A stretch of 41,279 nt of DNA from an uncultured Ruminococcus sp. Its GTDB lineage: Bacteria > Bacillota > Clostridia > Oscillospirales > Acutalibacteraceae. Each line of letters begins with the position of its first letter. Position 1 is the stretch's first letter. The notes under the pieces were generated by a model. It saw nothing but the letters and a program-made list of their open reading frames with translations, was not told the origin of the DNA and ran no database searches. Both the position numbers and the translations under genes were made by a program. Shown piece by piece: positions 34,898 through 37,728 of the stretch. Location of the stretch: NCBI GenBank assembly GCA_902776975.1, contig CACYSI010000007.1, positions 1 through 41,279 on the forward strand, read 5' to 3'.

Positions 34898-35836
34898 TTA
34901 TTCAGACAGATCATCCAGCAGCCCGTTGATAAGTGTTTTGAAGCTATCTGATACGGTATCCATATTATCCTCGATCGAATCCTGAGAGAATCCATCTTCT
35001 TCCATTCCTGCCGCCATATTTGAAACAGCGTTGATGACGCAGACCTTCATGCCCATGTGTCTTGCGGCGATGACCTCCGCTCCCGTACTCATACCGACAG
35101 TATCGGCGCCCAGTGAGCGATACATTTTGATCTCGGCTGGTGTCTCAAACTGAGGACCGGACACCTGTACGAATACTCCGCTGTGTACAGGTATTCCCTT
35201 ATTTTTGCCGATATTCAAGACAGTATTTTGCATATCTTTGTCAAACACATCTGTCATCCCGATAAAACGCTCGCCTAAATCTTCATCGTTCTTTCCGACG
35301 AGGGGAGAGGGGACGAACGAGGTGATCTGATCATTCAAGCAGACAAATTCACCGACCTTGAATTCGGGATTCATCGAGCCGACGGCGTTTGTGATGATCG
35401 CCGTTTTTGCTCCGAGCAAATGAAGGACTCTCATCGGCAGTACGACCTCTTGCATAGAGTAACCCTCATAATAGTGCACCCTGCCCTGCATAACAGCCAG
35501 CTTGAGTCCGTTATACTCAGCGAATATCAGATTACCGGCGTGGTTAGGCGCGGTAGAGACCGGCCAGCCGTCGATATCCTTGTAGGCGATCTTTTTCTTA
35601 ACGTCGAGCGTGTCCGCGAAGTCACCTAAGCCTGTGCCGAGTACGAGCACTGCGTCCGGCTTGAAATCTGTGATCGCTTCTATCTGCTTTTTACAGCTTT
35701 GCAGCCTCTCGGCATAGGTTTGCTCGGCGGCGACAGTCGGTTCTTCTTTCTTTTCGGGCGCGGCGGAGCATCCCTCAAGAGAAAGTATCATCGCCATTGT
35801 GATACAGATCGCGAAAACGGATAGTATTTTTTTCAT
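34898..35836 (-). CDS. Purine nucleoside phosphorylase with lipoprotein signal peptide
   Basis: A 312-residue protein. Residues 1-22 are a lipoprotein-type signal (MKK, hydrophobic core, LEG before Cys23), followed by a short charged linker (APEKKEEP). The rest is a full trimeric-type purine nucleoside phosphorylase: LGTGLGDFAD (phosphate loop), MQGRVHYYEGY (catalytic His region), AVGSMNPEFKVGEF, SGPQFETPAEI (base and ribose contact Glu), VGMSTGAEVIAARH and VINAVSNMAAG (purine-contacting Asn). All key residues are kept. It should split purine nucleosides with phosphate into base and ribose 1-phosphate, but outside the membrane, which is unusual for this cytosolic enzyme. The ATG at 35836 has GAGGGG upstream; an ATG four codons earlier does not have a usable site. 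Confidence 0.9.
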   Translation of the reverse strand: MKKILSVFAICITMAMILSLEGCSAAPEKKEEPTVAAEQTYAERLQSCKKQIEAITDFKPDAVLVLGTGLGDFADTLDVKKKIAYKDIDGWPVSTAPNHAGNLIFAEYNGLKLAVMQGRVHYYEGYSMQEVVLPMRVLHLLGAKTAIITNAVGSMNPEFKVGEFVCLNDQITSFVPSPLVGKNDEDLGERFIGMTDVFDKDMQNTVLNIGKNKGIPVHSGVFVQVSGPQFETPAEIKMYRSLGADTVGMSTGAEVIAARHMGMKVCVINAVSNMAAGMEEDGFSQDSIEDNMDTVSDSFKTLINGLLDDLSE

Positions 35837-35853
35837 AAAACCCCTCATTTCCT

Positions 35854-36213: not shown

Positions 36214-37728
36214 TCAAATGATAATAGCAGGGAGTACCGTCAAGGTACTCCCTGCTATTATCAATGGTGGAGTTAAGGCGAATAAATCCGAACCTTTTTC
36301 TAAATCATCTTTTTTGAGGACTGTAGCGCCGTACTTGAAGTTAAAGTAAAACTCGATTTTATCATCGTAGAGAATTATTGCGTTAACAAAGCTATCGACC
36401 AGGCGCTTTCTGTACTTTGGATTTTTGGGATCGAGCTCTCTGAAGTGCTTAAGCCATTGGATGACTTGCTCTTTTGTGAGCGTCGGTCGTTTTATCTTTT
36501 CTGTTGCTATTTGGTATTCAAGCTCTTTCTTTTGACCTTCCAGTTCAAGCAAACGATCTTTTGTGGTTTCGGTGACAACACCCATCTCAATAGCCTTCAT
36601 GATGTTGGCAATACTTTTCTCGGTGTCTGAAAGCTGTTTTGTAAGGATCGGTATTTCACTGCCGCCCTGATTCTGAACCGTTATCACGGTTCCTGCGATT
36701 TCATCTATCAGTTCGTCATCCCAGATGATCTTTTGAATCTGATCAATTACAACATCTTCTATGGCGTCTTTCTTGACAGGCTTTTTATCACAGCCTTTTT
36801 TGAGCTTTGCCGATGAGCACTTGTAATACCGATAAGTGATATTCCTACGGCTTGTGCCGCTTTCACCGATCATAAATGACATACACTTTCCGCAATAGAG
36901 TTTTGTGCTCAGGATGTATTCATCATCGGCTTTTGCTTTGAATTTGGCAGGAGCTCTTTTGTTGCCGGCTAATCGGTTGTTCGCTGCTTCAAATTCATCC
37001 TTCGAAATGATTGCAGGGATACCGTTTTCGATCACGATTTCGCGGAATCGGTATTCACCCATGTACCGTCTGTTTGAAATCATCTTTGACACAGATGATA
37101 CCTTATAGGTTGTTCCCCGACGGCTACGAATCCCTTTGCTGTTCAGATGATCGGCTACCTGCTTTAAAGTCATACCGCCATTATATAGCTTGAATACCTC
37201 GCGCACAACAGCAGCCTCTTCTTCTTTTATCTGAAAATGTCGCTCGTCATCAATATAGTATCCGAACGGGATCGCTCCTCCGTTGAACTTGCACTTGTAA
37301 GCATTTTCCGTCATTCCTCGGATGATTTTTTCAGCCAGCTCTGCGGAATAGTATTCCGCCATGCCTTCCAGTAAGGATTCAAGAATGATACCTTCGGGAC
37401 CTTGTGAGATCACTTCGGTAGCGGATATGACGCGGACATTATTGCGTTTCAGGATAGCTTTATAATGTGCCGAGTCATAACGGTTCCTCGCGAATCGGTC
37501 GAGCTTCCATACGATGACAACGTCAAACTGCCCTTTCGCACTGTCGCTGATAATTTTCTGAAAAGCAGGACGGTTATCTGTCTTTGCCGACAGAGCTCTG
37601 TCGATATAGGTCTCAATTATCTGAATATCATTCTTCTCTGCAAAAGCTTTACATTCACGGAGCTGTCCTTCGATACTTTCTTCCCTTTGGTTGTCGGAAG
37701 AGTACCGTGCGTAAATAACGCCTTTCAT
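36214..37728 (-). CDS. Large serine recombinase (site-specific integrase/resolvase)
   Basis: A 504-residue large serine recombinase. The N-terminal resolvase catalytic domain (residues 1-150) has VIYARYSSDNQ with the nucleophile Ser at about 10-11, followed by VWKLDRFARNRYDSAHY. The recombinase domain (about 160-260) has GGAIPFGYYIDDERH and RRYMGEYRF. A zinc ribbon (LYCGKCMSFM ... YYKCSSAKLKKGC) and a coiled-coil segment (about 355-410) precede the C-terminus. Such enzymes integrate and excise islands or phages. The final 17 residues are encoded by one arm and the loop of a perfect 20-bp hairpin, so the 3' end may have been altered by insertion. The start has a weak purine-rich site (AGGTG). 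Its composition is less GC-rich than the genes to the left. Confidence 0.93.
   Translation of the reverse strand: MKGVIYARYSSDNQREESIEGQLRECKAFAEKNDIQIIETYIDRALSAKTDNRPAFQKIISDSAKGQFDVVIVWKLDRFARNRYDSAHYKAILKRNNVRVISATEVISQGPEGIILESLLEGMAEYYSAELAEKIIRGMTENAYKCKFNGGAIPFGYYIDDERHFQIKEEEAAVVREVFKLYNGGMTLKQVADHLNSKGIRSRRGTTYKVSSVSKMISNRRYMGEYRFREIVIENGIPAIISKDEFEAANNRLAGNKRAPAKFKAKADDEYILSTKLYCGKCMSFMIGESGTSRRNITYRYYKCSSAKLKKGCDKKPVKKDAIEDVVIDQIQKIIWDDELIDEIAGTVITVQNQGGSEIPILTKQLSDTEKSIANIMKAIEMGVVTETTKDRLLELEGQKKELEYQIATEKIKRPTLTKEQVIQWLKHFRELDPKNPKYRKRLVDSFVNAIILYDDKIEFYFNFKYGATVLKKDDLEKGSDLFALTPPLIIAGSTLTVLPAIII
36219..36263. repeat. Perfect 20-bp inverted repeat overlapping the recombinase 3' end
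   Basis: The arms at 36219-36238 and 36244-36263 are exact reverse complements around GTCAA. It forms a very stable hairpin that covers the last codons of the recombinase. On the minus strand only a short T-run (ATTTG) follows, so a terminator role is possible but not obvious. Confidence 0.75.

Follow-up and report, generated by a model that had tools for sequence, protein, structure and literature searches.

A lipoprotein-type purine nucleoside phosphorylase of Ruminococcus predicted to lie outside the cytosol

Results

A trimeric-type phosphorylase with an N-terminal extension

The window, by which we mean the whole 41,279-nucleotide stretch of Ruminococcus DNA analysed here, carries on its minus strand an open reading frame of 312 residues that begins with the ATG at 35836 and ends in the stop codon at 34898-34900 (Table 1). 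An in-frame ATG 12 nt upstream would give a protein of 316 residues. The translation scored above the cut-offs of PF01048 (166.2 bits, E 1e-48; cut-off 25.1), NF006054 (308.3 bits; cut-off 218) and TIGR01697 (267.3 bits; cut-off 197.1), missed that of TIGR01700 (263.6 versus 293.35 bits) and remained below those of TIGR01699 and TIGR01698. Its score against MTAP (91.6 bits) was also below the cut-off (274.85), and the profile matches included no MTA/SAH nucleosidase model. PF01048 was the only matching domain; the PF02608 (Bmp/PnrA) domain gave no match. Family profiles and the retained catalytic residues described below identify the protein as a purine nucleoside phosphorylase (PNP) of the trimeric type. 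The best solved relative is 8swu (E 5e-69), with an alignment that starts at query residue 43. As compared to solved PNPs, residues 1-42 are extra and consist of MKK, a hydrophobic stretch, LEG-Cys23 and a charged linker.

Table 1. Coordinates of the phosphorylase gene and its parts within the window.
Feature	Position	Strand	Basis or remark
Lipoprotein-type purine nucleoside phosphorylase (PNP), 312 aa	34898..35836	-	ORF translation, family profiles and solved-structure match
AGGGG ribosome-binding site, 4 nt ahead of the PNP ATG	35841..35845	-	
Predicted signal peptide, residues 1-22 (MKK, hydrophobic core)	35771..35836	-	equivalent in 20 unbroken genus copies
Putative lipobox LEG-Cys23, residues 20-23	35768..35779	-	Glu at -2 atypical; the two nearest relatives have LAGC
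Charged linker, residues 24-42 (19 residues)	35711..35767	-	not covered by the alignment with solved PNPs
PNP catalytic domain, residues 43-308	34913..35710	-	NF006054, 8swu alignment and residue alignment

The gene lies between one for a GH3 enzyme on the opposite strand and, upstream on its own strand, one for a serine recombinase; since neither is a purine gene it appears to be solitary. No riboswitch was found in the window or across 20 lipoprotein-type PNP loci including the window's own, where the sole Rfam match was a group II intron fragment (L086). Recent import of the gene from GC-rich Coriobacteria gained no support from base composition, its GC content (0.494) being equal to that of the window (0.492).

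The recombinase, a large serine type at 36214-37728 on the minus strand, lies directly upstream of the PNP gene. Members of its BLAST cluster are also encoded near the lipoprotein-type PNP genes of two other genomes (G112 and G143), which may bear on mobility.

The N-terminus resembles a lipoprotein signal

The sequence-only reading had described a lipoprotein signal that ends in LEG-Cys23 and is followed by a charged linker. This N-terminus was confirmed in the ORF translation, with an atypical lipobox, and displays the features expected of a Sec/SPII substrate: a positive n-region (MKK), a hydrophobic core and Cys23. Our own lipoprotein test called for a positive n-region, a hydrophobic core and a Cys at positions 15-35. 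It was passed by 7 of 20,000 shuffles of window residues 2-45 and by 5 of 184 neighbouring ORFs, all five of them lipoprotein-like. Among the 20 unbroken copies from the genus, 19 passed: each opens with basic residues, continues into a hydrophobic core and places a Cys in lipobox-like surroundings. The one exception (L090) carries the equivalent segment but no canonical start. None of 106 PNP loci outside this group passed (77 from genome contigs and 29 from a phylum sample), nor did any of the 27 testable loci among 29 fetched from the same family.

This test is crude, and because it permits Glu at -2 under a rule set when the window sequence was already known, it was repeated with the standard PROSITE PS51257 and G+LPP lipobox patterns. 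PS51257 was passed by 22 of the 26 copies in the clade described below, by one of 130 PNPs outside it and by 10 of the 184 neighbouring ORFs; for G+LPP the counts were 16/26, 0/130 and 7/184. Where PNPs outside the clade do match, it is within longer Coriobacterial frames and at a long distance upstream of the PNP motif. Because of its Glu at -2 (LEGC), the window copy matches neither pattern and may for that reason be poorly processed; two further copies (L207 and L208) also fail the lipobox patterns despite having LGGC. Under the positive-inside rule, the positive n-region would favour a C-outside topology even with an uncut lipobox. The exported state is well backed by sequence comparison for the clade and somewhat less strongly supported for the window copy, which is itself likely to be a lipoprotein.

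Homologues with and without the signal

The genus survey covered 150 genomes, the window's own included. The lipoprotein-type gene (lipo-PNP) was found in 23, in 20 of them as one unbroken frame, while 127 of the 150, and 65 of the 75 more complete ones, gave no match. All 20 unbroken copies have the N-terminal segment. The remaining three copies, in G135 (L191), G017 (L170) and G050 (L171), are broken by mutation or assembly error. No second match was found in any of the 23 carrier genomes. Outside the phylum, the gene was found in 6 of 140 genomes of the Coriobacterial family to which G449 (Olsenella, L003) belongs, five copies at 66-69% identity and that of G584 at 55%.

In the window's own family, 85 of 349 genomes gave a match. 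Among the strong matches listed, only the window's own reaches the signal region, and the same is true among the matches listed for the phylum sample of 299 genomes. One weak match to window residues 1-53 appeared in the family survey (G617, E 8.6e-4). At the 106 loci and the 27 of 29 same-family loci above, the N-termini themselves show that the tag is lacking outside the clade; the remaining family and phylum matches were judged by their alignment starts, which would also be compatible with a signal too divergent to align.

With the N-terminal columns excluded, the 26 unbroken lipo-PNPs (one without a canonical start) form one clade at an SH-aLRT of 99. A second tree, also without the N-terminus, gave 99/85 (bootstrap/SH-aLRT), and a single origin was recovered in 98% of 200 bootstrap trees, a bootstrap that is not fully settled. 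Within the clade, the window copy and those of G112 and G082 cluster with five Coriobacterial copies (100/100), and the copy of G584, from the same Coriobacterial family, adjoins this group (96/88). The immediate sister, just outside the clade, is an untagged PNP (L308) from another genus of the window's family (100/97); at 53% identity over residues 42-307 it is the nearest untagged homologue seen. The best reading overall is that a salvage PNP became exported once and crossed phyla. That the enzyme is anchored outside the cytoplasm, as had been proposed from the window alone, is backed by this comparison, since all 26 clade members have the segment. Close homologues uniformly lacking the N-terminus would have counted against the proposal; the outcome was the opposite, with 26 of 26 tagged.

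A separate PNP in Coriobacteria of the G449 family (L223, L224 and L228) has a longer frame, in which a DUF523-like stretch precedes the phosphorylase; this may be a fusion.

Purine genes beside some lipo-PNP loci

In 8 of the 23 carriers (G012, G017, G044, G079, G106, G113, G130 and G139) lipo-PNP is preceded by purA and purB. It starts 11-12 nt behind purB in seven of the eight, a guaA homologue intervenes in G130, and the G017 copy in this setting is one of the broken ones. Downstream lie an ogt-like gene in seven of the eight loci and a guaA-type gene in six, with gene names throughout these loci assigned from one locus. No purA or purB was found in the fetched DNA of the other 15 carriers, a large part of which consists of short contigs. 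In G624, the gene for the untagged sister follows purA and is flanked by two guaA-type genes. These clusters together suggest a simple history, in which a salvage PNP gained a signal and stayed clustered in one branch. In the Coriobacterium G524, a Bmp-type ABC system is encoded on the same strand a few kilobases from lipo-PNP.

A second putative lipoprotein enzyme and candidate transporters

The genome from which the window comes encodes five PF01048 proteins. One of them, at C40:3121-3909 (L192/L108), is an MTA/SAH nucleosidase (MTAN; NF004079, 248.9 bits, cut-off 169) with a lipoprotein signal of its own and the lipobox LAGC, and another (C25) resembles an untagged MTAN. The lipo-MTAN gene class was present in 13 of the 150 genus genomes, 9 of which also have lipo-PNP (9 of the 23 carriers; Fisher p 5e-6, uncorrected for kinship). 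A lipoprotein N-terminus was seen in ten of the 13 (in G079 without the usual start) and in G147; the copies of G114 and G105 are incomplete. An automatic test flagged only 10 of 59 MTAN loci because its motif clipped three N-termini. Three Coriobacterial MTAN loci have a lipoprotein N-terminus, but lipo-PNP is present in the genome of just one of them (G449). G449 is the only one of the six Coriobacterial carriers with a lipobox on both enzymes, and in G520, G522 and G524 the MTAN of this class lacks a signal.

An MTAN-like protein in G585, of the G449 family (L289), has a twin-arginine-like N-terminus (SRRQMLKLG...SLAGC) and was perhaps exported independently. Near the lipo-MTAN of the window's genome lies a QueT-like membrane protein (L192:5785-6348), whose score of 30.8 bits falls short of the Pfam cut-off (33.7), and by eye a QueT look-alike (L173:14263-14847) lies near the lipo-PNP of G082.

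Base permeases of PF00860 were present in 21 of 23 carriers versus 85 of 127 other genomes (p 0.023) and the Bmp family in 22 of 23 versus 83 of 127 (p 0.0025), with genome size, completeness and relatedness uncontrolled in both comparisons and with many Bmp matches partial, in frames of 650-700 aa. This co-occurrence is weak. The only PF00860 protein of the window's genome scored best as a uracil permease, under the cut-off of that model. A role for lipo-PNP in feeding bases to transporters, as suggested in the sequence-only reading, is a plausible hypothesis.

Catalytic residues are retained and some contact positions are changed

Residue positions below follow the numbering of human PNP. 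The alignment held 20 lipo-PNP rows representing 19 distinct genus genes (L004 and L092 are the same); L096 was left out and L002 and L003 entered as fragments only, all three being examined separately. In the window copy, Phe200 is intact, as are His64, Arg84, His86, Tyr88, Asn115, Ala116, Glu201, Met219, Ser220 and Asn243, which are unchanged in all 20 genus rows. The six Coriobacterial copies retain the motifs that contain His86, Glu201 and Asn243. Median dN/dS over the mature part was 0.075, 0.106, 0.206 and 0.085 in four subgroups (3, 10, 21 and 45 pairs), rough values given that many dS exceed 1 and that 5 saturated pairs of the 45 were excluded. By these ratios lipo-PNP is under purifying selection, which together with the retained catalytic residues supports an active enzyme.

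The initial description of all catalytic and substrate-contact motifs as intact stood for the catalytic residues and not for three other positions. The equivalent of Ser33 is Thr in the window copy, as it is in 7 of 106 other PNPs. That of Ala117 is Val in 20 of 20 genus rows, the window's included, versus 2 of 106 other PNPs, and is Thr, Thr, Ala, Ser and Val in five Coriobacterial copies. The equivalent of His257, which in human PNP is the 5'-hydroxyl contact, is Gln in the window copy and in two others (L082 and L083), and four Coriobacterial rows have Asp or Glu there; 17 of the 20 genus rows retain the His, as do 94 of 106 other PNPs. Coriobacterial copies diverge further at 87, 117, 218 and 221, and the G584 copy has Ser for Ala116. 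Given the replacements of His257, and of Ala116 in G584, the substrate range may differ, and a change in it is possible.

These replacements raise the question of whether the substrate might be a modified nucleoside (5'-modified, arabino-, queuosine-like or a nucleoside antibiotic) that is scavenged or detoxified. The substitution of His257 in the window and Coriobacterial subgroups, the co-occurring lipoprotein MTAN and the QueT-like proteins, one of them below its cut-off, would fit such a substrate. We nevertheless regard it as unlikely, as His257 is kept in most genus rows and the purA-purB-guaA context points to ordinary purines. Less probable again is an exported PNP-fold protein with no useful catalytic activity that senses nucleosides or binds them for hand-over to a transporter. 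The altered contact positions 117 and 257 in the window copy, the additional Coriobacterial changes (at 116 too in G584) and the frequency of Bmp-family proteins in carriers are what one might expect of a binder. Retention of His64, Arg84, His86, Glu201, Ser220 and Asn243 in every genus row, the Coriobacterial motifs, purifying selection on the mature protein and the lack of a Bmp-family match in the window PNP all argue for catalysis. Very improbable, finally, is a chance hydrophobic extension on a cytosolic enzyme: the Glu at -2 of the window copy does break the standard lipobox, but this explanation was rejected by the shuffles, by the 106 other loci of which none passed and by the lipobox patterns across the clade, and the stronger argument, from orthologues, is that the segment and its Cys persist across 26 sequences whose identity falls to ~50% and whose linker is variable.

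Discussion

In bacteria, PNP is usually regarded as acting in the cytosol, on nucleosides that have first been taken up. The reading that we prefer, and consider reasonably probable as a whole, is that lipo-PNP is an active trimeric PNP acting outside the cell. It would be exported by the Sec route and anchored through a lipidated Cys23 at the outer face of the cytoplasmic membrane, where it would cleave 6-oxopurine nucleosides (inosine, guanosine and perhaps xanthosine) with external phosphate to yield a base and ribose-1-phosphate. The base would be imported and would enter the IMP, GMP and AMP pools through interconversion by purA, purB and guaA products, the first two of which are linked to the gene in 8 of 23 carriers. 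The ancestor would have been a salvage PNP of the cytosol, encoded in a cluster of purine-nucleotide genes, that gained its signal once, and the gene would later have been transferred between Bacillota and Coriobacteriia, in either direction. The weak point of the proposed mechanism is that an external phosphorylase leaves ribose-1-phosphate outside.

That the tag is common to relatives in the genus and to distant Coriobacteria suggests extracellular breakdown of nucleosides before uptake of the pieces. More tentatively, and with somewhat less than even confidence, the anchored PNP, the anchored MTAN and Bmp-type ABC and base transporters might together form a surface system that dismantles nucleosides from food, host or dying microbes into bases. 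Such a system would have arisen by the addition of signal peptides to textbook cytosolic enzymes, and gene transfer would account for its presence in both Bacillota and Coriobacteriia.

Inosine, adenosine and similar nucleosides in the gut and rumen serve as signals and nutrients. If the preferred mechanism is correct, neighbours would gain access to bases and ribose-1-phosphate, and no uptake would be needed for nucleoside levels to change. A further question is why a phosphorylase would be used, rather than a hydrolase, where ribose-1-phosphate is not obviously recoverable.

The whole catalytic domain and the catalytic residues of lipo-PNP are those of trimeric (class I) PNP (PF01048/NF006054, 8swu), to which the window protein adds a lipoprotein-type signal and linker and the changes A117V and H257Q. 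Treponema PnrA and the Bmp proteins (PF02608) are lipoproteins that bind purine nucleosides outside the membrane. They resemble lipo-PNP in handling these compounds externally but belong to another family and only bind, and the window PNP has no PF02608 match. Bgp and MtnN of Borrelia burgdorferi are exported MTA/SAH nucleosidases thought to supply a transportable base (PMC7557402). They share with lipo-PNP the cleavage of nucleosides by an exported enzyme but differ in being nucleosidases and not phosphorylases, in coming from a spirochete and, for Bgp, in also binding glycosaminoglycans. The lipo-MTAN of the window's genome is their closer parallel. PNP has been placed outside the cytosol before, in a plant extracellular PNP (PMC6555093) and a DeoD-type PNP among heparin-binding proteins of Staphylococcus aureus (PMC5480030); these are apoplastic or DeoD-type, and neither is described there as a lipoprotein PNP. 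No paper describing a lipoprotein PNP was found in the open-access literature. Both the enzyme family and the lipoprotein route are old, and it is their combination that was not found in print there.

One further locus in the window's genome may be relevant to purine uptake. At L248:3772-7072 (G000 C12), Bmp-type ABC genes lie beside an amidohydrolase that resembles guanine deaminase, making this a candidate purine uptake locus.
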